Origin: a virus | Reading direction: 5' to 3' (one strand) | IMG/VR virus record: IMGVR_UViG_3300022223_000011 | Coordinates: 1 to 42,075 of that record | Length of the DNA: 42,075 nt | Shown: positions 2,247 through 42,075 of the stretch, in pieces | How positions within the stretch are numbered: position 1 is the first letter of the stretch | Layout: each line of letters opens with the position of its first letter | The notes under the pieces: model-generated | Told to the model about the DNA's origin: nothing | The model's database searches: none | The model's input: only the letters and a program-made list of their open reading frames with translations | Made by a program: the position numbers and the translations under genes

Positions 2247-2248
2247 GC

Positions 2249-7462: not shown

Positions 7463-7480
7463 ACGTTAATTATCGTGCGT
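7463..7480. repeat. Direct repeat copy containing TTATCGTG
   Basis: ACGTTAATTATCGTGCGT occurs here and again, identically, at 7958-7975, so the two copies flank the Dam gene. Here the sequence also encodes the last residues of Dam (THDN-stop). It contains one TTATCGTG half-site of the palindromes found at 7948 and 8299. Confidence 0.7.
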
Positions 7481-7933
7481 TGATATTTTACGCCAAAAGT
7501 AAACAATTACCGTGCCAGAATTATTTCCCTTTTTTGGCGAACCTGTTTCGGGATCAATGAAACTTATCCTTGATTTTAAAATGTCATAATGAAAATTACC
7601 GTAAATAAAATCATGCCAAGGTGCCGAGTCCATAGAGTTGACCGGCAAGATCATAACGCATGTTTCACAACCATTTTCGAGCACTTCATTTGATGCCTTT
7701 TCTATCCATTTAGCCTTTTCAGAAAACGGCGGGTTACAAAAAACCCTTTCGCCCCTCCATGATAGATTAAGTCCGTTTATTCCCTTATCGATGTAGGCCC
7801 CTTTTTTTGATTTACAGTTTTCAGTACTACAAGCGGCATCTAGCGTAAAACAAAATTTTCTATTTAATTGTCTATAGATAAAGTCAGGTGTTTCAAATAT
7901 GTCTAAGCCTTTTCCTTTTTGGTTTACATTCAT
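7466..7933 (-). CDS. dam: Phage Dam-type DNA N6-adenine methyltransferase
   Basis: 155 residues. The ETPDFIYRQLNRKFCFTLDA opening, CNPPFSEKAKWIEK with the catalytic NPPF at 67-70, and the SWRGERVF segment match the phage DNA N-6-adenine-methyltransferase family (Dam, pfam05869). This family transfers a methyl group from SAM to adenine in DNA, giving protection from host restriction or a mark for regulation. Its length fits the family. The ATG at 7933 follows GAGG and sits 15 bases after a palindromic site. It is one of three methyltransferases in the window. Confidence 0.88.
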   Translation of the reverse strand: MNVNQKGKGLDIFETPDFIYRQLNRKFCFTLDAACSTENCKSKKGAYIDKGINGLNLSWRGERVFCNPPFSEKAKWIEKASNEVLENGCETCVMILPVNSMDSAPWHDFIYGNFHYDILKSRISFIDPETGSPKKGNNSGTVIVYFWRKISTHDN

Positions 7934-8403: not shown

Positions 8404-8460
8404 TTAGAGTGAGGACCCGAGTGAGTCCCATTTGTTACCATAGCATTTACCTAGATTCAT
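8404..8460 (-). CDS. SL-repeat cassette C6, truncated
   Basis: This encodes MNLGKCYGNKWDSLGSSL and then stops, so it has the shared 14-residue start and only one tetrapeptide repeat. Its ATG overlaps the stop of cassette C5 (ATGA), with AGGAG from the C5 tail codons as ribosome binding site. It marks the downstream end of the array and may be a broken copy. Confidence 0.55.
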   Translation of the reverse strand: MNLGKCYGNKWDSLGSSL

Positions 8461-8645
8461 TTGCTTCTCCTGAATGAGGGCCAGAGTGAGTACCAGAGTG
8501 AGGACCTGAGTGAGGTCCTGAGTGAGTCCCCGAATGAGTTCCAGAGTGAGTACCAGAGTGAGGTCCCGAGTGAGGACTCGAGTGAGTACCAGAGTGAGGA
8601 CCCGAGTGAGTCCCATTTGTTACCATAGCATTTACCTAGATTCAT
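8457..8645 (-). CDS. SL-repeat cassette C5, 62 aa
   Basis: The shared start MNLGKCYGNKWDSL is followed by eleven x-x-S-L units (for example GSSL, WYSL, ESSL, GTSL; two end in F) and the tail RRSK. The first repeat position is W, G, R or E and the second Y, S, D, N, T or P. The codons for the terminal RR of C4 (AGG AGA) provide the ribosome binding site for this gene, and the start overlaps the C4 stop by four bases. The regular four-residue period suggests a solenoid or fibrous fold. Function unknown. Confidence 0.7.
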   Translation of the reverse strand: MNLGKCYGNKWDSLGSSLWYSLESSLGTSLWYSLWNSFGDSLRTSLRSSLWYSLWPSFRRSK

Positions 8646-8854
8646 TTGCTTCTCCTGAGTGAGTTCCTGAGTGAGGACCAGAGTGAGTACCAGAGTGAGG
8701 ACCTGAGTGAGGACCTGAGTGAGTCCCAGAGTGAGTCCCCGAGTGAGTACCCGAGTGAGTACCTGAGTGAGTACCCGAGTGAGTACCCGAGTGAGTACTC
8801 GAGTGAGTACTCGAGTGAGTCCCATTTGTTACCATAGCACTTACCTAGATTCAT
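8642..8854 (-). CDS. SL-repeat cassette C4, 70 aa
   Basis: The shared start MNLGKCYGNKWDSL is followed by thirteen x-x-S-L units (EYSL, GYSL, RYSL, GDSL, WDSL, WSSL and others) and RRSK. It lies nine bases after the DUF6745-like gene with AAGGG before the ATG, so it is the only cassette whose ribosome binding site is not made from a previous cassette. The other two frames are also open because the 12-base unit has no stop; the xxSL frame is chosen for its ribosome binding site, shared start and ATGA coupling. Confidence 0.72.
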   Translation of the reverse strand: MNLGKCYGNKWDSLEYSLEYSLGYSLGYSLRYSLGYSLGDSLWDSLRSSLRSSLWYSLWSSLRNSLRRSK

Positions 8855-8865
8855 ACATATCCCTT

Positions 8866-10050
8866 TTAATCTATTACTTCTCTGCTTTCTTCTAGCCAGT
8901 GGTCATACTCAAGAACCTTTTTTATTTCGTAAACCCCTCTTTTTAGATTTACATTGTTATGCTCAGGGTGCTGAATGGAGCAATTGTCCATTGCTTCTAA
9001 AAATCTTTTCCCATTTTCGCTCTCATATATATTGCATGAAACCCCTATATGCCTCACTAGCCCCTCTGCTGCTACATTGCTTTTTGTTAGCTTAGCATCT
9101 TCTGGTACCTTATTTGCCTTAAAGAACAAAGCGTCGCCTTGCTGGTGGTATTTAATAGCTTGATTTTTCGCAAATGACATTCCGTCTAATGTCTCAGGTA
9201 GCGCAAATTTTGTGAGTTGATTTCTAAACATTATCGCATCGTCTACATTTTCACTTTTAGGGTCAACTCCTTCGATGTGAATTGTTTTAATTGAAGGGTT
9301 TTCCATTTTTAAAAAGGGTCGAACCCTTGAGTCTCCAAGGTCAACACCTAATAATTGATACCCATTTTTTTCGTCAATTACTTCTGGGTTTAATATTTTA
9401 ACGAGCACGTCTGCCGGTATCTTCCTGACAATTTCTCTTCTTACGTCCGCGTTTTTCTCGTTTAAGATATCTTCTTTAGTGAAGTCTTCTGGTTTTTTCA
9501 TAACAATTTCTTCAGTAACATCAACATTATTTAGCTTCCAAACATTGTTTCCGTCTGCATATTCAATAGCAGGACCATCTGAACAATGAAGAGTCTCCTT
9601 GTCATCTAATGTTGAAATTTTTATAGGTCTTTGCGATAGAAGTATGCCTGATTCAAAAATTAAGAATGGTCCACACTCTTCGACAATACTCTCCATTACT
9701 TTTATTTTTTCCAACTCCTTATTTACGCCTAAGACGTTTACAATGAACGAGCAAAACGCTACCCAGTAATTATTTAGATTCCCCCAGCAAATTTTTGAGA
9801 CATAATCCGAAACGCTCCCTCCTGCATGTTTAGCAGCAAACTCACACATAGCCATCGGTGATTCGAAAACTTTATATTTGTAATTAATATCTAGATTTAA
9901 GTCCAGCACCTTGTATAGGCCCTTGATAGCAGTAACTGCCCTTTCTTCGTTTATCCTTTCAGTTAATAAACACTGTTTTAAAAACTTTTCTTTGTAAACT
10001 TCGACTTGGGCTTCTTGTTCCTTTGTCATTTTAGTGATTAAATTTGTCAT
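8866..10050 (-). CDS. DUF6745-like protein
   Basis: 394 residues. The middle contains LNNYWVAFCSFIVNVLGV, then a SQRPIKIS ... LHCSDGPAIEYADG segment and NADVRREIVRK. These correspond to the YWxAFY, RP, LHxxxGPAxxYxDG and NxEVRR landmarks that I associate from memory with DUF6745 proteins. In many of those relatives a run of xxSL repeats lies inside the chain just before the YWxAFY part; here that position (about residues 85-100) has no repeats, but separate small repeat genes flank the gene on both sides. The ATG at 10050 follows AAGGAAGG. An in-frame upstream extension through the repeats (to 10353) was rejected. Biochemical role unknown. Confidence 0.65.
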   Translation of the reverse strand: MTNLITKMTKEQEAQVEVYKEKFLKQCLLTERINEERAVTAIKGLYKVLDLNLDINYKYKVFESPMAMCEFAAKHAGGSVSDYVSKICWGNLNNYWVAFCSFIVNVLGVNKELEKIKVMESIVEECGPFLIFESGILLSQRPIKISTLDDKETLHCSDGPAIEYADGNNVWKLNNVDVTEEIVMKKPEDFTKEDILNEKNADVRREIVRKIPADVLVKILNPEVIDEKNGYQLLGVDLGDSRVRPFLKMENPSIKTIHIEGVDPKSENVDDAIMFRNQLTKFALPETLDGMSFAKNQAIKYHQQGDALFFKANKVPEDAKLTKSNVAAEGLVRHIGVSCNIYESENGKRFLEAMDNCSIQHPEHNNVNLKRGVYEIKKVLEYDHWLEESREVID

Positions 10051-10093
10051 GTTCCTTCCTTTTTTAGCCATTGTTAAACAAGCTTGTTGTTTA

Positions 10094-10372
10094 TTATTTT
10101 TTAACGAGGTTTTTACTACCTCTCCTGATTGAGTTCCAGAGTGAGTCCCTGAGTGAGGACCAGAGTGGGTTCCAGAGTGAATCCCAGAGTGAGTCCCAGA
10201 GTGAGGACCAGCGTGAGTCCCAGAGTGAGGACCAGCGTGAGTCCCTGAGTAAGGACCAGCGTGAGGACCTGAGTGAGAACCCGAGTGAGTTCCTGAGTGA
10301 GTCCCTGAGTGAGGACCAGAGTGAGGACTCGAGTGAGTCCCATTTGTTACCATAGCACTTACCTAGATTCAT
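10094..10372 (-). CDS. SL-repeat cassette C3, 92 aa
   Basis: The longest repeat gene: shared start MNLGKCYGNKWDSL, seventeen tetrapeptide units and a different tail (RRGSKNLVKK) instead of RRSK. Several units have drifted (SSR, SLL, NPL, NSI). It ends 43 bases before the DUF6745-like gene and is coupled to C2 by ATGA. The extra tail and drift suggest an older copy at the junction with the core gene. Confidence 0.68.
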   Translation of the reverse strand: MNLGKCYGNKWDSLESSLWSSLRDSLRNSLGFSLRSSRWSLLRDSRWSSLWDSRWSSLWDSLWDSLWNPLWSSLRDSLWNSIRRGSKNLVKK

Positions 10373-10569
10373 TTGCTTCTCCTGAGTGAGTTCCTGAGTG
10401 AGTTCCAGAGTGAGGACCAGAGTGAGGACCTGAGTGAGTACCAGAGTGAGTACCAGAGTGAGTCCCCGAGTGAGTCCCCGAGTGAGTCCCCGAGTGAGTA
10501 CCTGAGTGAGTACCCGAGTGAGGACTCGAGTGAGTCCCATTTGTTACCATAGCATTTACCTAGATTCAT
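10369..10569 (-). CDS. SL-repeat cassette C2, 66 aa
   Basis: Shared start MNLGKCYGNKWDSL, twelve units (ESSL, GYSL, RYSL, three GDSL, two WYSL, and others) and RRSK. The start overlaps the C1 stop and the stop overlaps the C3 start. AGGAG from the RR codons of C1 precedes the ATG by six bases. Confidence 0.72.
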   Translation of the reverse strand: MNLGKCYGNKWDSLESSLGYSLRYSLGDSLGDSLGDSLWYSLWYSLRSSLWSSLWNSLRNSLRRSK

Positions 10570-10766
10570 TTGCTTCTCCTGAGTGAGTTCCAGAGTGAGG
10601 ACCCGAGTGAGGGCCAGAGGGAGTCCCCGAATGAGTTCCAGAGTGAGGACCAGAGTGAGGTCCCGAGTGAGGACTCGAGTAAGGACTCGAGTGAGGACTC
10701 GAGTGAGTACCTGAGTGAGTACCAGAGTGAGTCCCATTTGTTACCATAGCACTTACCTAGATTCAT
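10566..10766 (-). CDS. SL-repeat cassette C1, 66 aa
   Basis: Shared start MNLGKCYGNKWDSL, twelve units (WYSL, RYSL, ESSL, GTSL, WNSF, WPSL and others) and RRSK. The length equals C2 although the unit order differs. It is coupled to the short ORF C0 upstream by ATGA. Confidence 0.72.
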   Translation of the reverse strand: MNLGKCYGNKWDSLWYSLRYSLESSLESLLESSLGTSLWSSLWNSFGDSLWPSLGSSLWNSLRRSK

Positions 10767-11475: not shown

Positions 11476-11724
11476 TTATGGCTTTTCTTTTCTGCTTTTC
11501 CAAGCATCAATTGCCTCGTCTGGTAATTCAGTGATATCAACCCAAAGACTAATATCTAACCCCAAAACAGGCTCTCCGTCCTTATTTGTGTCAAATTCTC
11601 TGGCAAATTTCACCAGAACCCTGCCATCTTTAAAATCTACTACCTTCCCTGTTTCCTCTGTGCTCATCTTAATCTCCTTTTCAAGATATTCTGATTTATT
11701 AAATATAATTGGTCCTTCAATCAT
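11476..11724 (-). CDS. Hypothetical small protein with two start options
   Basis: 82 residues from the ATG at 11724, which follows GGGAG and overlaps the methyltransferase stop. An internal ATG at 11667 (MSTEETGKV) has an even better AAGGAG six bases away and would give 63 residues. The core (GKVVDFKDGRVLVKFAREF, LDISLWVDITELP) looks like a small beta-barrel. It could be made in two forms. Function unknown. Confidence 0.6.
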   Translation of the reverse strand: MIEGPIIFNKSEYLEKEIKMSTEETGKVVDFKDGRVLVKFAREFDTNKDGEPVLGLDISLWVDITELPDEAIDAWKSRKEKP

Positions 11725-13033
11725 TTTTTTCTCCCTTGTACGGGATCAACGAATGCAACTTATAAAGCCAGTTTACAGCGTCCGGCACGTGCTGGGCGGA
11801 TACAATTCTTATATGGCGATATATATTCCTTGCCTCTACAAAGGCCCCTATTTTTTCATTTGGGTCAATTGTGGCATCGCCTAGCTTTATAAAACATTGA
11901 GCTAGTTCAATTAAATAATTAGGCGCATCCGGCTTCATTTCTAGCGCTGTTTTTAAAAGAGTAATTGCTTCGTTATACCTAGTGTATCGCATATTTATAT
12001 CAGCGGCGAACGCTAATATGTCGGCAGACCTAGGGCACGATTTAATCATAGGTTTAATAAAGTTGTCTTCAATGGACTGCCATCCCTTGTCGTTTAATTC
12101 TTTTCTCTTGTGCTCATACGCTGCCATCCATGCAAGTGGAAAGTCTGGGAAAATCTCTATTGCTTCACTGTATCTGTGACCCTTATAAAGACCGAATGCT
12201 TTCTTGATTTTAGGCAGTACTTCTTTAACTTTTTCATATTGAAAAATATCAATCTTAGAAGACTCTCTTTTCTCGTCTTCTGTCATTTTTCGACATAGAT
12301 AAGTGTTGTCGTAAATCGTGTCATTTTTATGAGTTATTTTAAAGCCAGCTTTATGAAGAACAAATTCAAAATGTTCCTCTGTCCAGGCGTTAATATGATC
12401 TGGATGGTAGTAATATTCCAAGTCAAAACCACTGACTCCAAAATTAGTCATGCTCTTAAACCAGATAGGAACGGAAATATAAAGAATTCCGTCGTCGTTA
12501 AGCATGTCGTGCATTTCCATTAATTTCTTATCTGCGTCAACTTGATGCTCGGCCACCTTATAGCTCATTAATAAATCATATTTCTTTTTTGGGAGATAAT
12601 CGGTTAACTTTATGCCATACTCATGCATGGCTACGCGCTTAAACGACGTGGTCCATTCGGTACCATTCAGATCGGCACCTGGTATAATCTGCCCCAGCCA
12701 ACTTAAAACCATGCCGAAGGCGCTGCCTACTTCTCCGATAACAGGCGTCTTGTCTTTCTTCTTAAGCTCCAAAAGTCTTTCGATTTCATCTTCTAAAAAA
12801 GCTGCATGGAAATTTAACTTCCTTTGACCTGTGTACATGTTTATAATGCTTGGAGGCGGTCTGTAATTTTCCCTGTAATGTTCTTTTAATTTTTCTTCGT
12901 TGGATATTCTTTCTGGGTAAGTAACGAATCCGCAATTCTTACAAATGCACATTCCCTTTGGGACGATTCTGTGCTCGTCTACATTTTCCCAGTCGCCTTT
13001 TTCACATACGAGGCACCTAGCTTTTTCACTCAT
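11717..13033 (-). CDS. Zinc-ribbon SAM methyltransferase with TPR tail
   Basis: 438 residues. The N-terminal ribbon has CLVC and CICKNC pairs, as in sugar C-methyltransferases and related enzymes. A class I SAM domain follows (about residues 95-250), with GEVGSAFGMVLSWL as the SAM-binding loop, LLMSYKVAEHQVD, and DDGILYISVPIW. The C-terminal ~180 residues contain TPR-like helices (RYNEAITLLKTALEMKPDAP). The likely role is methylation of a sugar or carrier-linked intermediate within the glycan cassette, inferred from family and neighbours. The substrate cannot be read. Confidence 0.75.
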   Translation of the reverse strand: MSEKARCLVCEKGDWENVDEHRIVPKGMCICKNCGFVTYPERISNEEKLKEHYRENYRPPPSIINMYTGQRKLNFHAAFLEDEIERLLELKKKDKTPVIGEVGSAFGMVLSWLGQIIPGADLNGTEWTTSFKRVAMHEYGIKLTDYLPKKKYDLLMSYKVAEHQVDADKKLMEMHDMLNDDGILYISVPIWFKSMTNFGVSGFDLEYYYHPDHINAWTEEHFEFVLHKAGFKITHKNDTIYDNTYLCRKMTEDEKRESSKIDIFQYEKVKEVLPKIKKAFGLYKGHRYSEAIEIFPDFPLAWMAAYEHKRKELNDKGWQSIEDNFIKPMIKSCPRSADILAFAADINMRYTRYNEAITLLKTALEMKPDAPNYLIELAQCFIKLGDATIDPNEKIGAFVEARNIYRHIRIVSAQHVPDAVNWLYKLHSLIPYKGEKND

Positions 13034-13042: not shown

Positions 13043-13744
13043 CTATTTAAAAAATTCTTTTGCAATTTGTTCCATTTCAGAGGGCGTTGCTGCGTGCACG
13101 CTATCTCTGAAAAGCTTCCCTTTGAATTTTATATTATTCTTATCTTCCTCTAAAACAAAATGCTTCTCGATTAGTGGAACTTTAAGCATTGAAATACATT
13201 TCATGCAGGTCTGGACACCTATTGAATGATCACTTAACCCTATATCGAATCTTCCTGTAAACTTCTGAACTGCCCTCATTGGTAAATCTGGACTTGGCTC
13301 ACAGTAAGGTGTGGCAAACATGATTTTGGCGTTTTTTATTTTAACAGGGTTAAACCTGTCTATTGTTAGTGAGTTAATAGAAAGAAAAACCTCTTCCTTG
13401 TCCCACTTCTTAGGGTTCATTAAAAAGCTACTTGCAAACTGACCGGCAGCTAGTTTTTTCCAATATAAAAATGACTTGAGCCTGTCGTGCTTCTTGCTGA
13501 ATATAGAATAAAAAACGTCTATACCTATATCCCTTCCGTACTCAATTAGGTCTATATAATATTCGGTAGACATGGAAACTTTCTTGTAAAAGGCCCTTGG
13601 CATAGAGCCAGTACAGTCTTCATCTATCGCCTGAAGCTTCACAAGGTTAGCTCCACTCTCTTTGGCAACGCGAATCATTTCTTTCGCCTTTTCAAAATCT
13701 CCAAGGTGGTTATTACCTATTTCCGCTATTAAGTATTTTTTCAT
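13043..13744 (-). CDS. NeuB-like nonulosonate synthase, short form
   Basis: 233 residues. AEIGNNHLGDFEKAKEMI, GANLVKLQ (Lys36, Gln38), GLSDHSIG (169-176) and IEKHFVL (192-198) are signature segments of the NeuB family, which condenses phosphoenolpyruvate with an amino-sugar to form sialic, legionaminic or pseudaminic acids. The usual enzyme has about 340 residues; this one lacks the C-terminal antifreeze-like domain, and part of the barrel between residues 100 and 165 seems compressed. It may be a divergent or specialised synthase, or inactive. The ATG at 13744 overlaps the previous stop (ATGA). Confidence 0.8.
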   Translation of the reverse strand: MKKYLIAEIGNNHLGDFEKAKEMIRVAKESGANLVKLQAIDEDCTGSMPRAFYKKVSMSTEYYIDLIEYGRDIGIDVFYSIFSKKHDRLKSFLYWKKLAAGQFASSFLMNPKKWDKEEVFLSINSLTIDRFNPVKIKNAKIMFATPYCEPSPDLPMRAVQKFTGRFDIGLSDHSIGVQTCMKCISMLKVPLIEKHFVLEEDKNNIKFKGKLFRDSVHAATPSEMEQIAKEFFK

Positions 13745-13944
13745 AAAAATCCTAAAGGAGTCCATATGTCTGAATAATTCAACTCTCCATCATTTAACCA
13801 ATCATCTATTTTTGCAAGTTTATCGTTATATTCGTCAATATCGAACTCATTAATAATAGCTTCCGTTTGGAATTGAAGTGAACCAATATCTACTGTAAGA
13901 ATGTATATAGAATTAAAGAAAATATTATAAAATGCAAACTCCAT
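13741..13944 (-). CDS. Hypothetical acidic protein, 67 aa
   Basis: The first 25 residues are hydrophobic and aromatic (MEFAFYNIFFNSIYILTVDI); the rest is acidic (FDIDEYNDKLAKIDDWLNDG). It is coupled to both neighbours by overlaps inside the glycan cassette. No family is recognised. An accessory role for the flanking enzymes is only an inference from position. Confidence 0.55.
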   Translation of the reverse strand: MEFAFYNIFFNSIYILTVDIGSLQFQTEAIINEFDIDEYNDKLAKIDDWLNDGELNYSDIWTPLGFL

Positions 13945-14345
13945 TAAAACGAACTCTCCTTTAAAAATTTCTCAAACTCTTGGTCCCTTTTCTTTTTCTT
14001 AGACCTTTCAATTGAAAGCTGGTGTATGCTTAAAGTTTTAGCAGCATCGGGATTATCTAACTTGCAGGGAAACTTTTCTCTGTAAATCGACTTAACCGTT
14101 AGTTCAATTGACCTATTCATTCTAATAAAAAGATCGACTATTTTACTAGTATTCATTTTCTTTTTTACCAAGTCATCCATTCCTGCCTGAATACCGTATC
14201 GCGTCTTTTTTAGTTCCTCTATGTCTCTTTTTAATAAACAGCTTGCTAGCCAAGCATTCCACTTGTCATTGTTACTGCTAATAAAAAGCTTAAATAAATC
14301 TATTGCCGGCCATTGTCTGGTTCTGCTTTTATTGTTGACTTTCAT
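13944..14345 (-). CDS. Hypothetical basic protein, 133 aa
   Basis: A Lys-rich helical protein (RSKKKKRDQEFEKFLKESSF at the end) with a Trp-containing N-terminal third. It overlaps the end of the cytidylyltransferase-GT2 gene by 17 bases. No catalytic motif or known fold is visible. It lies in the middle of the glycan cassette. Confidence 0.6.
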   Translation of the reverse strand: MKVNNKSRTRQWPAIDLFKLFISSNNDKWNAWLASCLLKRDIEELKKTRYGIQAGMDDLVKKKMNTSKIVDLFIRMNRSIELTVKSIYREKFPCKLDNPDAAKTLSIHQLSIERSKKKKRDQEFEKFLKESSF

Positions 14346-15630
14346 TGCTGTTTAAAATTTCCTGTTTTATTTTTTCTCTTTCTTTTAGATTAGTCCTTGA
14401 AAGGCTGCCCTCTGTGTGCCTGTAAAAAAAAGTAGGGTAGTGATAGTAATCTACTTTTAGCCGATGCCTTGCCCTGGTTATCCAGTCAAGCCCTTCATAT
14501 CCTCTAAGTTTCTCAGTAAATTTAATATAGTTCAGAGAAGACCTCTTGGCGATCGCACCGCCCATGTGGTGGTTTTTGTTTCCATTCACTACCTTTTCAA
14601 AGCTACCATCAAAATAACAAGGATAAACTATATCTGCCTCAAGGTAATTAATGTAACTGCACAGTTCACTAAGGTTGTCGTTGTTGGCCAAATAGTCATC
14701 GGCATCTAGCCTTAAAACATACTCTCCCTTAGCTTGGGATATTGCTAAATTACTAGACGCTGCTAGCCCTATGTTTTCTTTGTTCTCAATATATCGAGCG
14801 AACTTAGTTGTGTTGCAAAAATTCTGCATTATCTCGGCAGTTCTATCAGTTGAACCATCATTTATTAAAAGGTATTCAAAGTCAAAGTTTTGATTGCGGA
14901 CAGACTTAAGGCATTCATTTAGATGCCTATCTGCGTTTTTAGCGCACGTATACACAGTTAACCTAGGAAGCCTATACGGCAGGTCTTTTGAGTTGTTTCT
15001 CAAATAATCTATTGCCGCTTTTTTAGTGCTGTCTCCCCTAAGGTTTTCTATTAGATTACGAATGCTCTCAAAATCTTCGGGATAATCAATCATTAACCTA
15101 TCTTCGTAACTATCAAAGCTCATCTTCCCAATTTTGCCAGGTTCAAGAACTTCCCTTATTGCGTATGATATATGCTCTACTGCACCAAATTTATTACACG
15201 CTTTTTCTAGTGCCTTAATCGAGATTATCTCAAATCCCGTGCCCTCTGTTTGAGGGGAAAGATAAAGGTAGTCTAATCCCCTAGTTTTAAAGTTTGCCAA
15301 AGCTTGCATGATCTCTGCTGAGTCAACAAAGATTTTATCATGGCAAATTCTTACTATTTCAGTAAGACCATACTTAAGAGCTGTTTTATACATCCTTCCC
15401 ATGGGATTGTGGTAATTGATTATATCTCCATGAACTTCTGCTTTTGAATTAACTAAAATGCTATCGTAGTAAGATTTTTCGGCGAGGGGAACGGATACTA
15501 TAGTAGGAATACAATCGGGCATATTATTAACAAGTCTTCTAATAACTGGTATACCCATTATCTTTCTAGCTGCTTTTCCTGGCACTCTACTAGAGCTCAA
15601 TCTTGAGCAAATAATTACACCGGCAGGCAT
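14329..15630 (-). CDS. Cytidylyltransferase-GT2 glycosyltransferase fusion
   Basis: 433 residues and two domains. Residues 1-200 carry CSRLSSSRVPGK (8-19), RICHDKIFVDSAEI and YPEDFESI, typical of SpsF/NeuA-like cytidylyltransferases that activate an acidic sugar as a CMP or NDP form. Residues 220-420 are a GT-A family 2 glycosyltransferase: LTVYTCAKN, DGSTDRT (258-264), the DADD metal site (309-312) and a YEGLDW segment. The fusion links activation and transfer of a sugar. With the NeuB-like enzyme next door this suggests a complete branch for making and attaching a nonulosonic-acid-like sugar; the acceptor is unknown. Tandem ATGs at 15633 and 15630 are both possible starts. Confidence 0.8.
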   Translation of the reverse strand: MPAGVIICSRLSSSRVPGKAARKIMGIPVIRRLVNNMPDCIPTIVSVPLAEKSYYDSILVNSKAEVHGDIINYHNPMGRMYKTALKYGLTEIVRICHDKIFVDSAEIMQALANFKTRGLDYLYLSPQTEGTGFEIISIKALEKACNKFGAVEHISYAIREVLEPGKIGKMSFDSYEDRLMIDYPEDFESIRNLIENLRGDSTKKAAIDYLRNNSKDLPYRLPRLTVYTCAKNADRHLNECLKSVRNQNFDFEYLLINDGSTDRTAEIMQNFCNTTKFARYIENKENIGLAASSNLAISQAKGEYVLRLDADDYLANNDNLSELCSYINYLEADIVYPCYFDGSFEKVVNGNKNHHMGGAIAKRSSLNYIKFTEKLRGYEGLDWITRARHRLKVDYYHYPTFFYRHTEGSLSRTNLKEREKIKQEILNSNESQQ

Positions 15631-16574
15631 CATGAACTCCAATTAAATTTATATCCCTCGTAAGATTCAAAGCTCGAGCAATTCTTGCAAGGGTCCATGT
15701 TGAATGCTTTTTTACTTATTAAATCCCTTCTCAATCTAGCAGCTTTTTCAGACCCAAATATTTCCCATATGGAGTCTTTTTTAATATCACCTAAGCATAG
15801 TTCTTCTTTAATGTCCGGGCAGCAGGGAAACGCCTTGCCTTCATGGTTAAATATCAATCTAACATGTGCCTGATAACAGCTTTGCCTTCTCACTGCCCTT
15901 TCTTTGTCCTCAAGCTCGGTGACATCCTTTTCCACTCTCCCTGCTACCATGTCACGAATCGAAACAGTTGCCTCCGGCCATAGCTTTTTAGCTTGCGCCT
16001 CAATGTCTTCATCTTTGTTTAACTTGGTTCTAACCGCCTGGATAACCAGTTCAGTCTTTCGACCGGGCCAGTTGTAGAACTTATTAATATTATCCAATGT
16101 AACCTTGTGAATCCCTCCGGCCCTTTGGTATTCGAATACGTTGGCCAGAAATGAGTCAAATGATACCTTAACCTTTGTCTGGCACGCTAGGCCTTTAAAT
16201 ATGTCATCCTTGCTTGTGTCAAATTTAAAGTTAGAGTTAGTTAATCTGTCTATGTATGCACTGCTCTGAGATAACACTCTAGCTGTGTGACAAGCAAAAT
16301 AAAAATGAGGGCTAAGGGTTGACTCCCCTTTCCAGTTAAGCTTTACAGAACTAACGCCGGCCAAAGAACCCTGTATTAATATATCCTTTATTGTGTCTTT
16401 ATCCATATGACCGCGTTTAAATGGTAAATTCTTTGGGTCGGAATGATAGCAGTACCCACATTGCATATTGCAGGCACTAGACAATTCCAAGGATATATCA
16501 ACAGGGGTATCTAGTTTTAAGTGTCTCCCGTATTTATATTTAAACCTGTAAAGATAGTAACTTAGACTATTCAA
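15630..16574 (-). CDS. Radical SAM/SPASM-domain enzyme
   Basis: 314 residues. The CNMQCGYC motif (Cys35, Cys39, Cys42) binds the catalytic 4Fe-4S cluster; NWKGESTLSP corresponds to the GGEP-like segment. The C-terminal part has FPCCPD, an EELCLGD segment and DPCKNCSSFE, a SPASM-type auxiliary-cluster pattern. Such enzymes modify sugars (epimerisation, dehydration) or peptides by radical chemistry. Here it sits directly before the cytidylyltransferase-GT2 gene, so sugar modification is favoured, though peptide or tail-protein modification cannot be excluded. The start appears to be TTG after an AAGGAAGGGG stretch. Confidence 0.82.
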   Translation of the reverse strand: MNSLSYYLYRFKYKYGRHLKLDTPVDISLELSSACNMQCGYCYHSDPKNLPFKRGHMDKDTIKDILIQGSLAGVSSVKLNWKGESTLSPHFYFACHTARVLSQSSAYIDRLTNSNFKFDTSKDDIFKGLACQTKVKVSFDSFLANVFEYQRAGGIHKVTLDNINKFYNWPGRKTELVIQAVRTKLNKDEDIEAQAKKLWPEATVSIRDMVAGRVEKDVTELEDKERAVRRQSCYQAHVRLIFNHEGKAFPCCPDIKEELCLGDIKKDSIWEIFGSEKAARLRRDLISKKAFNMDPCKNCSSFESYEGYKFNWSS

Positions 16575-23301: not shown

Positions 23302-24297
23302 CTAGGTAGTTTCTAAAAATTTCAAATCATGCTTACGATTAATTCTATCTAATTCTCTACTAATTAGAAACATTTGATTTCTTGCTTGTGTTAATAAATT
23401 GTTAAGCGTGTTTTTAACCTTAGCGTCCTCTGGGTCGAACATGTACTGCATTTGCTTTTCAAGAGTAGACTTTCTTGATGTAGATAATATGGTTTTCTTC
23501 GTGCATTGGATAACTGGTAAATTAAATGTCGTAATATATTTGGCCAACCACTTAGCACTGAAAAGTAAATTACCAGATGAGTAACAAAACTCACCGTCTT
23601 CCCTGACGGTGAGCTGATGACGCATATAATGGGCCTTGCCCCCACCATACTTGTCAAACGCATAGTATGATTCTTTATCTGACCATGAATAGTCGAAGCC
23701 TATTAATAGTATTTTATCATATCCGAAAAAATTCTGTCGACCATTTTCGTCTGATTGCGTCAATAGAACCACCATTGCGCCAGAAACATTTGTCGCCGCT
23801 GCTATCCCATTAGGACATCCAGACAATTCACCGAATTTTTTTTCAGATCCCAAAACGTCTTTATTAACTGTGAAGTACATATCCTTCCAGTTTCCATTTT
23901 GCGCCCATTTAGGATTAGCGCAAACATTCATAAAGAGAATGGTTTTATCTAACTTGTCCTTCCATTTCTCCATGTATTTTTCGTAGCTAACATTTGCATC
24001 TGCTACCACACAGAAGGTCGGGGTTATACCGTGATCAAGTAACGGACCTAGTGTCTTATCACAACATAGAATATCTACGTTATCCTGATATTTTTTAATT
24101 GTTTCTAGTTCGTGTTCAAAAGAATACCCATTGGCAATGCAAAGTACTGCTCTACCTACTCCACAATCTCTAAAACACTCAATTGATTTTTTTGCATACT
24201 TAGCATTCTCTTTAGCATGCTTCTCCCATTTTTCACCAAACTGCCTAATAACGGCCTCTGATTGTTTTCTAATTTGGCTTGTTGACATTTCACTCAT
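23302..24297 (-). CDS. DUF115/Maf-like glycosyltransferase
   Basis: 331 residues. The block VLCIANGYSFEHELETIKKY, VDILCCDKTLGPLLDHGITP and FCVVADANVSYEKYM follows the DUF115 pattern (nucleotide-binding loop, then xxDxxLxxLLxxGIxPxxxVxxD). In many bacteria this domain occurs in Maf proteins, which attach nonulosonic acids to flagellin, and in MptE-like enzymes. Further down, GFDYSW resembles the conserved second half. Here it is embedded between the tail terminator-like gene and the tail tube, an unusual place. With the NeuB-like and cytidylyltransferase genes it suggests glycosylation of a tail protein. The substrate is an inference. Confidence 0.75.
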   Translation of the reverse strand: MSEMSTSQIRKQSEAVIRQFGEKWEKHAKENAKYAKKSIECFRDCGVGRAVLCIANGYSFEHELETIKKYQDNVDILCCDKTLGPLLDHGITPTFCVVADANVSYEKYMEKWKDKLDKTILFMNVCANPKWAQNGNWKDMYFTVNKDVLGSEKKFGELSGCPNGIAAATNVSGAMVVLLTQSDENGRQNFFGYDKILLIGFDYSWSDKESYYAFDKYGGGKAHYMRHQLTVREDGEFCYSSGNLLFSAKWLAKYITTFNLPVIQCTKKTILSTSRKSTLEKQMQYMFDPEDAKVKNTLNNLLTQARNQMFLISRELDRINRKHDLKFLETT

Positions 24298-24307: not shown

Positions 24308-24808
24308 CTAATACCATTGTGTAACTTTTAAACTTAGCTTAACGCCTCTAAAACTCGTCTCCTGATCTAGCGCTGTCCCGTAATAATCTGCCGAATCAAC
24401 CATAGACCATTTAGCAGTTGCAGAAAGATCAGGGTTTGCCCTTAAAATTTCCTCTATGTTCTCCGCTAAATATTCTATTTGATCACTAGAGCTATCATTT
24501 GCAGGAGAATCTATATTATAATCAATCACCGCAGCGTTTATGTCTAGAATTAATTCTGCCTTGCGTTTTGCATTTGTCATAGTTTGGGCAATAGTATCTT
24601 GGTTCATAGACTTAGAATCATAATGAACAGTAACGCAAGGAAAGTAATCATCTTGTATTGGAATTAGATCAGGATTAACGGTTAAGACCTTAGAAACCCT
24701 GTTGGTTAAATTTGCTGATAAATCGACGGGAGAGCCAGTAGTTGTATTGGCCGCATCCAGTATATTTTTAACAGCATTTTTAATTCCGTTTAAATTTAGC
24801 TGCCCCAT
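24308..24808 (-). CDS. Tail terminator-like protein
   Basis: 166 residues. Position between the gpG-like protein and the tail genes, an alpha-beta composition and the FPCVTVHYDSKSMNQDT segment fit tail terminator or head-tail joining proteins that cap the tube. No decisive motif. The start overlaps the stop of the upstream gene. Confidence 0.55.
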   Translation of the reverse strand: MGQLNLNGIKNAVKNILDAANTTTGSPVDLSANLTNRVSKVLTVNPDLIPIQDDYFPCVTVHYDSKSMNQDTIAQTMTNAKRKAELILDINAAVIDYNIDSPANDSSSDQIEYLAENIEEILRANPDLSATAKWSMVDSADYYGTALDQETSFRGVKLSLKVTQWY

Positions 24809-25407
24809 TATTTGACCTTCTTATTCGTTAAATGATCAATTGATATTTTAGCAATATTTTTCAATCCTTTTCCAGATAACCACATGAATTTTCTCTGCGG
24901 AAGCTTGTCCCTGGGGCCATCATTATTATGTGCGGCGGCATAAGGGAACCCTGATTTTGTTTTTGCGTTAGTATACCACTTCCATCCATTCCTAGATAAA
25001 ATCGTTTTTTTACCGGCCTTTATCGGAAATATTGATTTTCTAAGCCCACCAGAATCTTGGAGAATCCTACCGCCCAATCTCTTGGGTCTAGCATCCTCTA
25101 CTAATGGCTGTTTAAACAATGGAGAATCATTATAATCAGGGTCTAAAGGTATAACCTTCCCCTGCATTTTTCTAAAAGAAATAACGCCTGCCCAAACTAA
25201 CTGCGTAGACTTGGCATGGACTTTCCACTTCCCAAAGGGTCCTTTTTCTTGTTCAAAATGACTCATTATATCTGCAAAAACAGGCATAGATATAACCTTG
25301 CCCCATGTCTTTGCCTTGCCCTTGTCGGCATCTTTTAATTCTCTCTCTAGGAAATTTAGATACTTTCTTAATTCTTTATCATCTAGTTTGGCGAAACTTT
25401 CAGGCAC
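24808..25407 (-). CDS. Virion morphogenesis protein (Mu gpG-like)
   Basis: 199 residues. An N-terminal helix (LDDKELRKYLNFLERELKDA), a basic middle and the C-terminal FPYAAAHNNDGPRDKLPQRK with a FMWLSG end are typical of the Mu gpG/phage tail completion family, in which the Y/H-x-x-G...P-x-R-x-F-M/L pattern is conserved. These proteins act in head-tail joining. Placement fits. Confidence 0.78.
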   Translation of the reverse strand: MPESFAKLDDKELRKYLNFLERELKDADKGKAKTWGKVISMPVFADIMSHFEQEKGPFGKWKVHAKSTQLVWAGVISFRKMQGKVIPLDPDYNDSPLFKQPLVEDARPKRLGGRILQDSGGLRKSIFPIKAGKKTILSRNGWKWYTNAKTKSGFPYAAAHNNDGPRDKLPQRKFMWLSGKGLKNIAKISIDHLTNKKVK

Positions 25408-26703: not shown

Positions 26704-27609
26704 TTAAATTACGTCTTTAATCAAGAACCCCGCCAATGAAGAAATAATTCGGATATCGTAATCCATATTTGCTTCGATAGCGTCTGATTCCCTAGACTCT
26801 ACCCGCCATCTCTTTACTAAGTTTTTAGGCTTCATAAAGGTAACGCCGGTACACTGGGTCTTTTTACCTGGGTTTGGAACCACGTAACCAAAGAACGCCA
26901 CATCTCCCCACATTGATGATAGTGAAGATGCCTGCCCTCTAGCAGCTGTGTCATAGCTTTGTTTAGAAACTACGTACTTATCTGCCCCTAGAAGCTTTGC
27001 AATTTTAACCTCGTCGATTTCTGCACTAGTGTATTTAATACGATCTAGAACACTGACGTGGTTTTTAATTGCAATGTGCGCCTCATGGTTGAGACCGATT
27101 ACGTTTGGCATCTTGCCGCTGTTTCTTAAAACCAAAAGCGAAGCTGTATCAAACACTGGGATAGGGTTGGAAACAGTTGTATTGGCATTAAAAGCATTTG
27201 CGGCTGCAAGCGAAACGTTTAACGACCAGTTTGTAGTAGTCATTAAATTACAACCATCCAACTCCATCCTGCGCTGTAGCGCATCCGTAAGTTGTTCAGT
27301 TGTCTCCGCTCTCAAGTCGGCCAAATCGTCGTTCTCTTCCTCGTCGTCAGCTACATAATCTTTCAATGCATTCTTTACCAATTGGTAAGAGGCAGTTGAG
27401 AAATCATAGTAAAACTTATTCGACTCGGCTCCAATCGCTCTTTTTGTTTCAGGGATTCTGAAATTTCTTTCATAAATCCTGTAAATGTTGCTTCTCTTCT
27501 TTACGGCTCTTTTCGGAAAAAACTCCGGGATGATATAATCCGGGTTCCGATACTTAACAGAAAGATCGGAGAGAAGCGCGTCAGTATGTAATTTATTAAT
27601 ATCTGGCAT
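26704..27609 (-). CDS. Major capsid protein
   Basis: 301 residues. A helical N-arm (KLHTDALLSDLSVKYRNPD), a beta-rich E-loop-like region (RIPETKRAIGAESNKFYYDF), a long acidic helix with DYVADDEEENDDLADLR (spine-helix-like) and the C-terminal P-domain and A-domain pattern (GLNHEAHIAIKNHVSVLDRI, MWGDVAFFGYVVPNP) are consistent with an HK97-fold capsid protein. It lies between the decoration protein and the connector genes and is followed by a strong terminator, as expected for the most abundant virion protein. Confidence 0.85.
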   Translation of the reverse strand: MPDINKLHTDALLSDLSVKYRNPDYIIPEFFPKRAVKKRSNIYRIYERNFRIPETKRAIGAESNKFYYDFSTASYQLVKNALKDYVADDEEENDDLADLRAETTEQLTDALQRRMELDGCNLMTTTNWSLNVSLAAANAFNANTTVSNPIPVFDTASLLVLRNSGKMPNVIGLNHEAHIAIKNHVSVLDRIKYTSAEIDEVKIAKLLGADKYVVSKQSYDTAARGQASSLSSMWGDVAFFGYVVPNPGKKTQCTGVTFMKPKNLVKRWRVESRESDAIEANMDYDIRIISSLAGFLIKDVI

Positions 27610-33679: not shown

Positions 33680-34438
33680 CTACTTGGGAATTTCTGTGCC
33701 ATTGATTCGATTCCTTGCTATCTCAAAATATTTTTCGTCTTTTTCTATTCCAATAAATTTGCGGTTTAAGTTTTTACACGCAACGCCAGTTGATCCTGAT
33801 CCCATTGTGAAATCCAATACTGTTTCGTTTTCTAGCGTGTAGGTTTTGATTAGGTATTCTAATAGTGCAACTGGTTTTTGGGTTGGGTGTGTTCTGTTTA
33901 GCGGGTTGCACTCTTTGGCTCTCATGTTAAATGTTATCAAATGTTTTGGGTATCTTTTTGTAGTATCAGACTTTGGTATAAAGCCGTCCTTGAACCTGCT
34001 CATTAACTCGCTTTTTTGAGGGGCCTTTATATGCGGTCTTATGTTTCTCGGGTCCGCATTAACCATTTCTGGATAGTAATTTAGCTTCCCTCTGCCAAAC
34101 ACTGATATTATTTCGGTGGTTTTCATGGGCATTATTTTGTTATTTATGGGGTTACCCCCGGATACCTTATCCCAAATCCAATCATACTTAAACATTTTCA
34201 AATTACTCATTCTTAAATGACTTGAAAAAGGCTCACTGCCAAATAAACAAATAGCTCCATTGTCTTTTGTAATTCTTTTCAACTGTTCCCACATCGGCTC
34301 AAATGGAATTACATTGTCCCATTTACAGGCAGTAGTGCCGTAAGGTGGATCAGTTAAAACCATATCTATTGATTTATCTGGAATATCTTTCATTACCTCT
34401 AAGCAGTCGCCGCAGACTAACATAAAGTCACTGCTCAT
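33680..34438 (-). CDS. DNA N4-cytosine/N6-adenine methyltransferase
   Basis: 252 residues. TDPPYG (29-34) is the catalytic motif IV and LDFTMGSGSTGVACKNLNRK holds the SAM-binding FxGxG-type motif I, placed after the catalytic motif, so this is a beta-class (N6_N4_Mtase) enzyme. It probably protects phage DNA from restriction or marks it for packaging. A THPTQKP segment is conserved in this family. It lies between the small and large terminase genes, with the ATG at 34438 overlapping the previous stop. Confidence 0.9.
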   Translation of the reverse strand: MSSDFMLVCGDCLEVMKDIPDKSIDMVLTDPPYGTTACKWDNVIPFEPMWEQLKRITKDNGAICLFGSEPFSSHLRMSNLKMFKYDWIWDKVSGGNPINNKIMPMKTTEIISVFGRGKLNYYPEMVNADPRNIRPHIKAPQKSELMSRFKDGFIPKSDTTKRYPKHLITFNMRAKECNPLNRTHPTQKPVALLEYLIKTYTLENETVLDFTMGSGSTGVACKNLNRKFIGIEKDEKYFEIARNRINGTEIPK

Positions 34439-34814
34439 TACTATCCTCGCCCTCAATGTCTTTCATTGCTTGCATTAAAGCAGCATGACCCGTAAGTATG
34501 CCGCCGCTATGCTCTTGCTTTTGAGGTATCCTGCCTATCAACCGACTGACTAAATAGTCCTGAGCGGTAACGCATTGCTTTTTAATTGCCCTGTTAATTG
34601 CACTTATAATCATAGCGTCAAGCGCGGACAGATTGGGGTCTTTCGTTAACTCTTTGAGTTCACTGATCGACATGTGCATGTACTTATTAATAGCTTTGTC
34701 GTGCGCTGCCTTGTTTAAGGACCTTGCTTCCTTGAGCTCTTTAATGCCCTCAGGCCTACCCTTGCCAAACTTGTTGCCTTTTTTGAATTTGTTTTGTGGG
34801 TTAGGATTTGCCAT
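34428..34814 (-). CDS. Terminase small subunit-like protein
   Basis: 128 residues. PQNKFKKGNKFGKGRPEGIK at the N-terminus is the KxGxSGNPxGRPxG-like pattern (DUF5681 style) that occurs in small-terminase-like proteins. The helical core follows (SALDAMIISAINRAIKKQCV). Located near the large terminase with a methyltransferase between. A role in recognising packaging DNA is inferred by position and pattern. Confidence 0.68.
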   Translation of the reverse strand: MANPNPQNKFKKGNKFGKGRPEGIKELKEARSLNKAAHDKAINKYMHMSISELKELTKDPNLSALDAMIISAINRAIKKQCVTAQDYLVSRLIGRIPQKQEHSGGILTGHAALMQAMKDIEGEDSNEQ

Positions 34815-35829
34815 TACTGAACCATTGTTTATGTATTTCTCTGCTTATATTATGCATCATGAGAGGGGGGACGGACATACCTATTAAATGCTTTGGGTTC
34901 GTATTTACAAACTTATAATCTAGTGGATAGCTTCCGCCTAATTGGAGCTCCCTGGTTGTTAGTTCCCTTGGGTATTTATAATGATATGCCTTAGTTCCAC
35001 CATCTCCAATTATAGTATTTAGGGGCCTCTTGGGGTGGACCCTGGACGCTCCGAACAGGTGTCCCTTGGGGTGGTATTTAGAAAATGACTCACCTGGATT
35101 TGCCTTTTTCCAGTACTCTATCTGCCCATTGGTAACGCCCTTGGCCTCGACGTTGCCCTCATCTATTTCGTTAAAGGTTATCTGCGGCAAGGCAAAGGCC
35201 ATCTTTAGCTTCCCCCAACCCAAGTCCCTTCTTTTACAAATAAAAAATACTCTTTCGCGCTTTTGCGGAACCCCCATTGTCGCAGCATTTAACAAGAACA
35301 GCTGCACATTGTAGCCCGCCGTTTTAAAGAGCTCATTAATTTGCTTAACGTAGCCCTTGGCATTTCCCATTAATAACCCCTTAACGTTTTCAGCAATAAC
35401 AACTTTTGGCTGTAGCTTGTGGGCCAAATCGATAAAGTGAAAAAACAAGTCATCTAATATCTGCTCTGATTGACCTTCTCTAAACTTTTTCTTTTTACCC
35501 CATGCTTTTTCCCTGGAGCCTGCCATGGAGAAACTAGAGCATGGAGGCGATCCATCAAGTATGTCTAAATTATATAACTCTTCAGGTAAATCCTTTCGTA
35601 GTTTAAAACTTCTTATGTCTTCAACGTACAGGTATTTAGGATTATGATTAATCTTATAAACTTCTGCCATCTTTGGATCTATTTCGTTGGCGCCTATTAC
35701 ATCAAATCCGCTCATTTTATAACCCATTGTCGAGCCACCGCCACAAGCAAAGCATGAAAATACTTTTAATCCGTTTTTAGGAACGTTATCAAGGTCGGAT
35801 AGTTTCCATTTGTAAGTAAATTCAGTCAT
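34801..35829 (-). CDS. C5-cytosine DNA methyltransferase
   Basis: 342 residues. Motif I FSCFACGGGSTMGYKMSGF, motif IV GSPPCSS with catalytic Cys97, motif VI AENVKG (Glu147), motif VIII QKRERVFFICK and motif IX-X (PLNTIIGDGG, then LTTRELQLGGSYP and IGMSVPPLMM) are all in order, so it is probably active. It transfers a methyl group to cytosine C5. The target recognition region (about 200-265) is short. The ATG at 35829 overlaps the ParB-like stop. Confidence 0.93.
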   Translation of the reverse strand: MTEFTYKWKLSDLDNVPKNGLKVFSCFACGGGSTMGYKMSGFDVIGANEIDPKMAEVYKINHNPKYLYVEDIRSFKLRKDLPEELYNLDILDGSPPCSSFSMAGSREKAWGKKKKFREGQSEQILDDLFFHFIDLAHKLQPKVVIAENVKGLLMGNAKGYVKQINELFKTAGYNVQLFLLNAATMGVPQKRERVFFICKRRDLGWGKLKMAFALPQITFNEIDEGNVEAKGVTNGQIEYWKKANPGESFSKYHPKGHLFGASRVHPKRPLNTIIGDGGTKAYHYKYPRELTTRELQLGGSYPLDYKFVNTNPKHLIGMSVPPLMMHNISREIHKQWFSNGKS

Positions 35830-36319
35830 TGAATTCAAACCCGCATTTTGGACAAGTGTGTTCTAGATCGTTGCCGAAATTATCCAAATCTATTTCTTTA
35901 TTTGAGCTGGGACCTCCGTCACTTTCAGCTATGCCAAAACTGTTCTCACTAAAGCCCCACTCCATTAAGTCGTCCATTTCAAACTCGTTAGCAAGAATAT
36001 CGAAGTCCCATGCGCCTGCCTGGTTTTTGTTCATGCGAATTAGTACAGCTTCCTCTTGCTTTGGAGTTAGCTTTCGATCAGGGACTAGTACTTTAATTTC
36101 TTGGTTCGGATCTTCTTTCTTTAAGACCATGCATCGGGCGTGCCCAGAGAGTATTGTGTTATCTGTGTTGATGTTGATATACTGTGCATACCCGATGTCA
36201 TCAAAGGAACTTTGAAGCTCGTTAAGACCTAATTCTGTTATGATTCTGGGGTTCTTGTCGTAAGGTTTAAGATCGGAAACTTTTCTAGTTTCAACGTGCC
36301 AAGTAATTCGTTTACTCAT
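35822..36319 (-). CDS. ParB-like nuclease-domain protein
   Basis: 165 residues. VSDLKPYDKNPRI and NTILSGHARCMVLKKED match the ParB/sulfiredoxin-like fold (ParBc), where the G-H-x-R element is conserved. The middle is acidic, and a CPKCGF pair at the end looks like a remaining half zinc ribbon. ParB-domain proteins are often next to phage methyltransferases and terminases and may act as DNA-binding or CTP-using partners. It is the first gene after a possible promoter, so it may start the late gene set. Confidence 0.82.
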   Translation of the reverse strand: MSKRITWHVETRKVSDLKPYDKNPRIITELGLNELQSSFDDIGYAQYININTDNTILSGHARCMVLKKEDPNQEIKVLVPDRKLTPKQEEAVLIRMNKNQAGAWDFDILANEFEMDDLMEWGFSENSFGIAESDGGPSSNKEIDLDNFGNDLEHTCPKCGFEFND

Positions 36320-40271: not shown

Positions 40272-41066
40272 TTACTTACTCATTGCTCGGAATTTATTAT
40301 TGTCTTTTATCGCGCCATGAATTAATTCAGAATCAGTTATTAATGAAAGTGATTCCATGTTTTCTGGGAAACATTTACCAGAATAACCTAGCCCATGATG
40401 CCCTGGAACATCTAAATGCATTGGTGAGAAAAACCCTGTAATATTTATAAGCCTCTTTACAATGTCGTAATTCGCTCCGTACCTTTTGCAAAGATCATAG
40501 AATACATTAGCATAAGTAACCTTCACAGCGCCCAAGCAGTTGTGCATATACTTACAAAGCTCTGCTTCTATATTACTTGTGAAAACATGTTTTTTCCCTG
40601 GGAACATCATTCTAATATTTGGATCGTCCTCTCCGCCACATATTACATCTAACGCAAATATATCATTAAGCGCTCGGCTCTCTGTTAAAAACTCAGGCAT
40701 GTGAATTACGTTCGCACTATGCACTCCGTTTAACAGGTCTGTCGTGCAAGGCAAAACTGTTGACCTGATAACGGCGGTCGCCCCTGGTTGCATTAACTTT
40801 AAAATGCTCACTATGTTTTCTGTACGCTGAAGGCGGTTACTGTTATCCGTTAAAACAGGAACACAAATAAAAACATAATCACATTCCTTGATATATTTTT
40901 CGTTGTTATACCCCTTATCAGGGTCATGTAAAAGCAACTCAAAATTATTCCAGAACTGACTCTCGACAGACGTCTTCCAAAATGATTCTTCTTTTTTCAT
41001 GCAATGTTGAAAAAAAGTTTTCAAGGCTCCGCCAACTGTTCCAACACCAGCTATTCCAACCTTCAT
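40272..41066 (-). CDS. UDP-glucose/GDP-mannose dehydrogenase-like protein
   Basis: 264 residues. GIAGVGTVGG (4-13) is the NAD-binding Rossmann loop. VFICVPVLTD, RSTVLPCTTD, MPEFLTES and AELCKYMHN (Lys172, Asn176) follow the family order, and GLGYSGKCFPEN carries the catalytic Cys232. Family members oxidise NDP-sugars to uronic acids and have 390-450 residues; this one stops after the catalytic loop and lacks the C-terminal sugar-nucleotide-binding domain. It may act on a different substrate or need a partner. It lies in one unit with an epimerase-like gene and an RNA ligase. Confidence 0.8.
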   Translation of the reverse strand: MKVGIAGVGTVGGALKTFFQHCMKKEESFWKTSVESQFWNNFELLLHDPDKGYNNEKYIKECDYVFICVPVLTDNSNRLQRTENIVSILKLMQPGATAVIRSTVLPCTTDLLNGVHSANVIHMPEFLTESRALNDIFALDVICGGEDDPNIRMMFPGKKHVFTSNIEAELCKYMHNCLGAVKVTYANVFYDLCKRYGANYDIVKRLINITGFFSPMHLDVPGHHGLGYSGKCFPENMESLSLITDSELIHGAIKDNNKFRAMSK

Positions 41067-41779: not shown

Positions 41780-42075
41780 GCCCAAACCTTTTAAACCATT
41801 TAATTGTATTCACTACTTGCTTATCTGGGTTTATTAAATCAGTTTCCTTATAAAAATCACCTAGTAAATTCTGCATTGTAAAATTAGAACCAAATGCCGC
41901 AATAACGTCTGACTTCCTTGGTCCAGTGAATTTTATTCCAGCTTTGTTTTCGTAAATATCGTTAACCAGTTCGGCTACTCTGTAGATGGAAACCATGTTA
42001 CCTGTGCAAACATTAAACGCTCTTTCACTGCTAGACATATAAAGAAGCCTAGAGATAACCTCGGCAACTAAATAC
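41769..42075 (-). CDS. NAD-dependent epimerase/dehydratase, partial
   Basis: The C-terminal ~101 residues of a gene that continues beyond the right edge; the frame is open to the window end, so the ATG at 42038 is probably internal. FNVCTGNMVSIYRVAELVND matches the NVGtGxxxSixelaxxi segment of extended short-chain dehydrogenases, such as UDP-glucose 4-epimerase or dTDP-glucose dehydratase families. It acts on NDP-sugars and with the neighbouring dehydrogenase-like gene suggests sugar-nucleotide synthesis. The catalytic domain is outside the window. Confidence 0.75.
   Translation of the reverse strand, partial: YLVAEVISRLLYMSSSERAFNVCTGNMVSIYRVAELVNDIYENKAGIKFTGPRKSDVIAAFGSNFTMQNLLGDFYKETDLINPDKQVVNTIKWFKRFGHGQ

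Follow-up and report, generated by a model that had tools for sequence, protein, structure and literature searches.

Why should a virus carry, within its tail operon, a gene related to the transferases that glycosylate bacterial flagellin? The DNA analysed here (the window) spans an entire IMG/VR virus record (42,075 bases), for which an earlier note had placed a DUF115-type protein between the genes for a terminator-like tail protein and the tail tube, had drawn attention to its likeness to Maf proteins, and had proposed that a tail protein is glycosylated with the product of a nearby sugar cassette. The placement and the Maf likeness both hold. The occurrence of a DUF115 gene beside the tail tube gene, together with the sugar genes, suggests that part of the virion is coated with sugar by the virus's own enzymes.

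On the minus strand, positions 23302-24297 form a single open reading frame of 331 residues, P0001; the plus strand has many stops there. P0001 falls within the DUF115/MptE-like family PF01973 (E 1.7e-16, 60.9 bits, with a family cut-off of 34.6 bits), and all 66 of its relatives match this model at E<=10, the best at 1.4e-22. The sole NCBIfam match is to 'flagellin modification protein PseD' at 1.4e-5, which lies far under that model's own cut-off, and a PHROGs search gave no match at E<=0.1. An alignment of 66 DUF115 sequences, made up of P0001 and 65 of 84 loci (sequences shorter than 280 aa and duplicates being left out), contains 28 invariant columns, including D80, K81, D100, D147, N170, G200, D202, Y211, Y212 and N243. 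Such conservation would fit P0001 as a working enzyme. A role for His227 as catalytic base was given up as a firm claim, this residue being kept in only 59 of the 66 sequences. It is replaced in the other seven (L036, L055, L074 and four further loci); where such a locus has a record typed for its sugar synthase (L036, L055 through its near-duplicate L056, and L074), the type is NeuB only in all three.

An AlphaFold2 model of P0001 (pLDDT 86.5, pTM 0.84) finds its best solved counterpart in the Maf structure 5mu5 (Foldseek E 2.0e-11; Z 22.2, rmsd 3.2, 240 residues aligned), and a sequence profile of the 66 DUF115 relatives alone picks up the same structure at E 2.4e-5. Comparison of the model with 5mu5 shows that P0001 has the fold of the central Maf_flag10 domain. 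The three-domain Maf layout is absent, as P0001 aligns to residues 237-514 of 5mu5 only. Further fold matches are to MjHPPK (Z 15.7), SteA (10.9), ST8SiaIII (9.3) and CstII (8.2). The CMP-sialic-acid transferases of families GT42 and GT29 as a group score Z 7.5-9.3; ST8SiaIII and CstII (Z 8.0-9.3) appear to have an overall fold in common with P0001, although aligned identity is just 9-13 %. The GxDY...YYAF...YM.H stretch of DUF115 may resemble one in CstII, and at the nucleotide site P0001 has an Asp where CstII has Asn. From sequence and model together, P0001 is a putative stand-alone glycosyltransferase of Maf/sialyltransferase fold, encoded by a phage.

The second-ranking fold match nevertheless raises another reading, that DUF115 acts on small molecules, either as a diphosphokinase-like enzyme, in the manner of archaeal MptE and HPPK, or as a cassette enzyme working on sugar nucleotides, with no transfer to protein. 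PF01973 does include archaeal diphosphokinases, the archaeal 6-hydroxymethylpterin diphosphokinase MptE/MjHPPK has its Pfam family and, it appears, its fold in common with P0001, and Asp80 and Asp100, invariant in 66/66 sequences, align with Asp residues of MjHPPK. The Maf match is clearly the better one, however, and the context of P0001 is one of late phage genes; a metabolic enzyme has no need of a slot between terminator and tube, when the rest of the cassette is located elsewhere. We consider this reading improbable.

Table 1. Features of the window, with coordinates, strand and supporting matches.
Feature	Position	Strand	Evidence
P0001, DUF115/Maf-fold putative glycosyltransferase, 331 aa	23302..24297	-	PF01973 1.7e-16; model pLDDT 86.5; Maf 5mu5 Z 22.2 over 240 residues; 28 invariant columns/66 sequences
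P0002, tail tube protein, possible acceptor, 352 aa	22234..23292	-	PF18906 1.1e-19; P74-26 tail tube Z 29.0; T5 tube Z 24.7
P0003, tail-terminator-like protein, 166 aa	24308..24808	-	weak PHROG matches; conserved position
P0004, tail completion/neck-like protein	24808..25407	-	phrog_26 2.1e-4
Major head protein, other possible acceptor	26704..27609	-	phrog_1005 7.8e-46
P0006, methyltransferase with TPR tail, last cassette gene	11717..13033	-	PF13489 1.7e-7; TPR matches
P0007, NeuB-type PEP-dependent ulosonate synthase	13043..13765	-	PF03102 2.2e-12; PseI and NeuB models 2e-18 to 3e-18
P0008, small conserved cassette protein	13944..14345	-	no Pfam match; present in 26/28 tabulated records
P0009, cytidylyltransferase fused to GT2 glycosyltransferase	14329..15642	-	PF02348 5.2e-9 at 9-199; PF00535 1.7e-26 at 230-367; RxxSxRxPGK at 14
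P0010, radical SAM/SPASM protein of cassette	15630..16574	-	SPASM PF13186 7e-11; CxxxCxxC at residue 35
P0011, nucleotide-sugar dehydrogenase-like, accessory	40272..41066	-	PF00984 1.3e-12; PF03721 1.4e-10

P0001 lies among structural genes. The tube gene starts 9 bases after DUF115, and the terminator-like gene precedes it. All three are encoded on the minus strand, as are the further tail genes, which reach to 16589, and the sugar cassette (16574-11717); the window contains head protein, portal, terminase and tape measure genes. The modelled tube (pLDDT 87.6) has the two-domain fold of the P74-26 and T5 tubes. The terminator identity of P0003 is weak, as its PHROG matches are weak (phrog_20428, 'tail terminator', E 0.093; phrog_16204, unknown, 5e-4) and it derives mainly from gene order.

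This gene order recurs in the relatives. The search for other phages with DUF115 beside a tube gene, suggested in the earlier note, was made with alignments against viral contigs and gave 80 loci, which with those found before make 84 loci on 80 distinct contigs (four contigs occurring twice). The tube gene lies directly behind DUF115 in 79 of the 80 contigs, with a gap of at most 44 bases, and the remaining contig ends inside DUF115. A terminator-like gene stands before DUF115 in 78 of 80, the other two contigs starting inside DUF115; in four contigs more than 300 bases separate the two genes. Since the first loci had been picked by DUF115 or tube, the order was examined again from other baits. 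New tube-baited loci have DUF115 upstream in 56 of 59 cases, the other three beginning no more than 54 bases ahead of it, and DUF115 is present in 26/26 new capsid-baited loci that show this tube type; in loci with distant capsids (29-32 % identity) neither a tube nor a DUF115 of this type is detectable. Many baited loci are on contigs already counted, so that these figures test the bias of the bait rather than add further phages. In a second, more divergent clade (loci L255-L287; 28 examined) DUF115 is preceded by the terminator-like gene in 28/28 and followed by the tube in 25/28; two of the other contigs end, and the third, L282, may be a chimera, as its capsid gene is reversed. Mostly about 200 bases lie between DUF115 and tube in this clade, enough to hold a promoter or a very small gene. 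In tblastn searches, neither P0001 nor one divergent relative had a match in 50,697 cultured-phage records, and of 115 candidate stretches that the DUF115 alignment picked out in a genome scan, none was confirmed as a relative. Gene order thus confirms, at the level of sequence, that DUF115 belongs to the core of the tail operon in a lineage of uncultured siphoviruses.

What, then, might such an enzyme transfer? The NeuB-like and cytidylyltransferase genes that had been noted in this genome are indeed present (Table 1), within a cassette whose proteins have no obvious membrane-spanning stretch in the window, the highest 19-residue hydropathy being 1.34. This makes a cytoplasmic reaction on soluble subunits likelier than envelope chemistry, and it tells against the idea that the cassette alters the host envelope, for receptor masking or lysogenic conversion, with DUF115 serving that end. 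Some relatives are probably temperate, as one of them (L087) encodes a phage integrase at 2014-3186 (PF00589 8.9e-14), a tyrosine integrase whose cluster occurs in 3/21 sequence sets compared, and this would suit an envelope role. DUF115 is locked into the structural operon, however, and we regard such a role as quite improbable.

Against the same 50,697 cultured-phage records, the radical SAM and NeuB proteins gave no match, and the fused P0009 matched 11 records through part of its GT2 domain only. Scanning genomes with the radical SAM alignment gave 16 distant loci (22-31 % identity), every one of them from a record titled Acidobacteria or Vicinamibacteria; we do not take these as host evidence. 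The record ends within a gene (41769-42074) close to the dehydrogenase-like gene; its visible part, which has no Pfam match, reads as the C-terminal end of a nucleotide-sugar epimerase, and a dehydrogenase adjoining an epimerase-like gene recurs in L091, L095 and L104.

The sugar genes accompany DUF115 consistently. A synthase and a cytidylyltransferase, as a CMP-ulosonate pathway would need, occur in 24/24 DUF115 records of at least 35 kb (the window, 19/19 others and 4/4 of the second clade), so that DUF115 without phage sugar genes, the case that would have spoken against the earlier proposal, was not seen among records of this size. For the cassette as a whole we tabulated the stretches behind the tail operon of relatives, 28 records including the window. 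The cassette region is visible in 27 of them, and all 27 have a radical SAM match, a cytidylyltransferase-GT2, a methyltransferase and a PEP-condensing synthase; the 28th (G050) has no cassette gene in the stretch read. The G046 radical SAM match, of 175 aa and 55 bits, is both short and weak, and the small P0008-like protein is missing there.

The co-occurrence with NeuB-like genes that the earlier note expected stands for an ulosonate synthase but needs amending as to type, as the synthase is often of DAHP-synthase type. DAHP-synthase-type proteins cross-match PF03102 (L098 at 2.8e-6, against 6e-46 for DAHP_synth_1/PF00793), so that PF03102 counts inflate NeuB, and types were therefore assigned by separate profiles. 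In the 27 cassettes a single gene slot holds NeuB only in 10, DAHPS only in 15 and both in 2; these two, L087 and L088, carry both genes as if caught mid-swap. The best models for the DAHPS proteins are NF006421 (1.2e-81) and DAHP_synth_Bsub, both matches being below the models' own cut-offs; from the names of these models we take the enzyme to belong to the type Ibeta family. Exchange of the two synthases in one slot is what would be expected if the shared need is for a CMP-activated 3-deoxy-ulosonic sugar. With a DAHP-synthase-type enzyme in the NeuB slot of most relatives, the term 'nonulosonic acid' is too narrow.

In the second clade, a cytidylyltransferase occurs in 6 of the 14 records and a synthase in 2 + 4 (one cross-match left out). 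Their cassette keeps its order, yet often lies ahead of the terminase gene, and in G059 it comprises NeuB, GT2 and a separate cytidylyltransferase only. Shorter records often come without the sugar genes, and one of 22 kb (G061) has a cytidylyltransferase and no synthase match. As a control, distant-capsid records in which no DUF115 was seen have the cytidylyltransferase in 0/9, though these are mostly fragments of 7-36 kb, and DUF115 was searched by family in six of the nine (none found) and within their loci only in the other three. Mapped on gene trees, with records holding both synthases left out, the synthase type changes 5 times on the DUF115 tree, 6 on the tube, 7 on the capsid and 4 on the radical SAM tree; DUF115 does not fit clearly better.

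Which protein would receive the sugar? Distance correlations, which are exploratory and small, were used to look for partners of DUF115. With 25 records (G046 dropped as an outlier; eight partial tests, p values uncorrected for multiple testing), the partial r of DUF115 distances is 0.27 with the GT2 domain (p 0.0125), 0.28 with the head protein (p 0.007), 0.15 with the cytidylyltransferase domain (p 0.09), 0.05 with the tube and -0.03 with the terminator-like protein. With 52 loci it is 0.16 for the tube, 0.21 for the terminator-like and 0.09 for the head protein; with 49 loci, three divergent ones having been removed, the values are 0.11, 0.11 and -0.01. The apparent covariation of head protein with DUF115 in 25 records was rejected, as it vanished with 49-52 loci. 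DUF115 would thus seem to vary largely apart from the genes beside it and to follow the cassette more; this speaks for an enzyme coupled to its donor, and against a close structural partnership with the tube. This bears on the view that DUF115 is a former enzyme retained as a chaperone for tail assembly or as a structural component. Its strict site beside the tube gene might suggest as much, but a fold known for catalysis has kept 28 invariant columns, and the covariation of DUF115 with the tube is small when set against that between terminator-like protein and tube (partial r 0.44 with 52 loci, 0.40 with 49). We hold this view to be very improbable.

A stronger competitor keeps the same enzyme and donor and changes the acceptor to one or more other virion proteins, in head, tail tip or fibre, the site beside the tube then reflecting only late co-expression. 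Covariation of DUF115 with the tube does not exceed that with the terminator-like protein, and conserved Ser/Thr columns, which number 28/352 in the tube, 21/301 in the head protein and 9/130 in a scaffold/decoration-like protein, are not enriched in the tube over the capsid protein. The capsid signal in 25 records pointed the same way until it was lost in the larger sets, and the strict spot beside the tube in two divergent clades would still need explaining; we consider a different acceptor unlikely, though a serious alternative. The tube, as the product of the next gene, would be the likeliest single acceptor, and as such it is only plausible: gene order favours it, while covariation, the Ser/Thr tests and the mapping of synthase type on gene trees do not. 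Of the proposal that the cassette product glycosylates the tail, the parts that fare well are the fold, the place in the tail operon and the co-occurrence of sugar genes, whereas for the tube as acceptor there is gene order only.

We therefore favour, with a probability of about 0.5, a soluble cytoplasmic CMP-ulosonate pathway whose Maf-fold enzyme acts on a virion protein prior to assembly; the sugar donor, transferase activity, acceptor and timing of P0001 are what we infer. The PEP-condensing synthase, NeuB-type in the window, would form a 3-deoxy-ulosonic acid, which the GT2-fused cytidylyltransferase domain would activate to a CMP-sugar, while the radical SAM protein and methyltransferase may tailor the sugar or glycan. 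Late in infection, in the host cytoplasm, P0001 would then place the sugar on a virion structural protein before assembly. The transfer might be made by DUF115 or else by the GT2 domain, which could be the real protein glycosyltransferase. A bolder version, which we put forward tentatively as a possibility short of an even chance, is that the lineage has a flagellin-type glycosylation of its own, with a Maf-fold transferase obligatory among the tail genes and a self-made CMP-3-deoxy-ulosonic sugar of varying backbone (nonulosonic through NeuB, heptulosonic when DAHP-derived), giving a sugar coating of the tail that is swappable via one gene.

Parallels exist in known systems. The Maf/PseD flagellin glycosyltransferases (PF01973; 5MU5, from Magnetospirillum) have the central domain family and fold in common with P0001, and as with P0001 their genomes contain acidic-sugar donor genes and a cytoplasmic protein acceptor is proposed. 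They differ in size, being of 632-666 aa, whereas P0001 lacks the N-terminal domain and retains only the central one; unlike them, P0001 is found in a phage tail operon, with a donor synthase that is often of DAHP-synthase type. The excerpted text of PMC11339370 describes Maf as having three domains, including an N-terminal Rossmann-like and a C-terminal helical one, and as using no known sequon. In Aeromonas, according to an excerpt of PMC4065374, Maf1 makes direct contact with flagellin, which is glycosylated before it is bound by its chaperone and exported; a tail subunit modified before assembly would be a fair parallel to Maf acting on flagellin before export. In mycobacteriophages, phage-encoded transferases put glycans on capsid and tail tube subunits (Freeman et al. 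2023, as cited in excerpts of PMC12619734 and PMC11600133); there, by the latter excerpt, tandem glycosyltransferase genes adjoin an O-methyltransferase gene, unlike here. Phage virion glycosylation is thus already known. A literature search on DUF115/MptE/Maf, on nonulosonic acid and NeuB, on glycosylated structural proteins in phages, and on auxiliary metabolic DAHP synthase, cytidylyltransferase or radical SAM genes, which mostly did not extend to subscription papers, found no description of this arrangement, and a Maf-type gene in a tail operon with a CMP-ulosonate cassette appears, from its sequence, to be a variant that we found undescribed.

Other features of the genome deserve brief mention. 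Within the DUF115 coding sequence, at 23588-23615 on the minus strand, is a terminator-like 11-pair stem followed by a T-rich stretch; one was found, against 3.3 expected in shuffles, and it could be due to chance. An open reading frame at 8866-10353 (region 8457-10737) begins with a THSGPHSG-like repeat, overlapping frames being likewise repetitive, and its later part matches DUF6745 (3.4e-10). This 42-kb genome also encodes three DNA methyltransferases (Dam, N6/N4 and C5), at 7466-7933, 33680-34456 and 34801-35838.

Finally, if the proposed mechanism is true, Maf-type protein glycosylation would extend from flagella to virus particles. These viruses would also offer compact genetics, with one transferase, one donor cassette and few candidate acceptors, for direct tests of acceptor choice and donor swap, and the fact that NeuB and DAHP-synthase-type enzymes replace each other at a single slot is an indication of CMP-activated 3-deoxy-ulosonic sugars, which may be of an undescribed kind.
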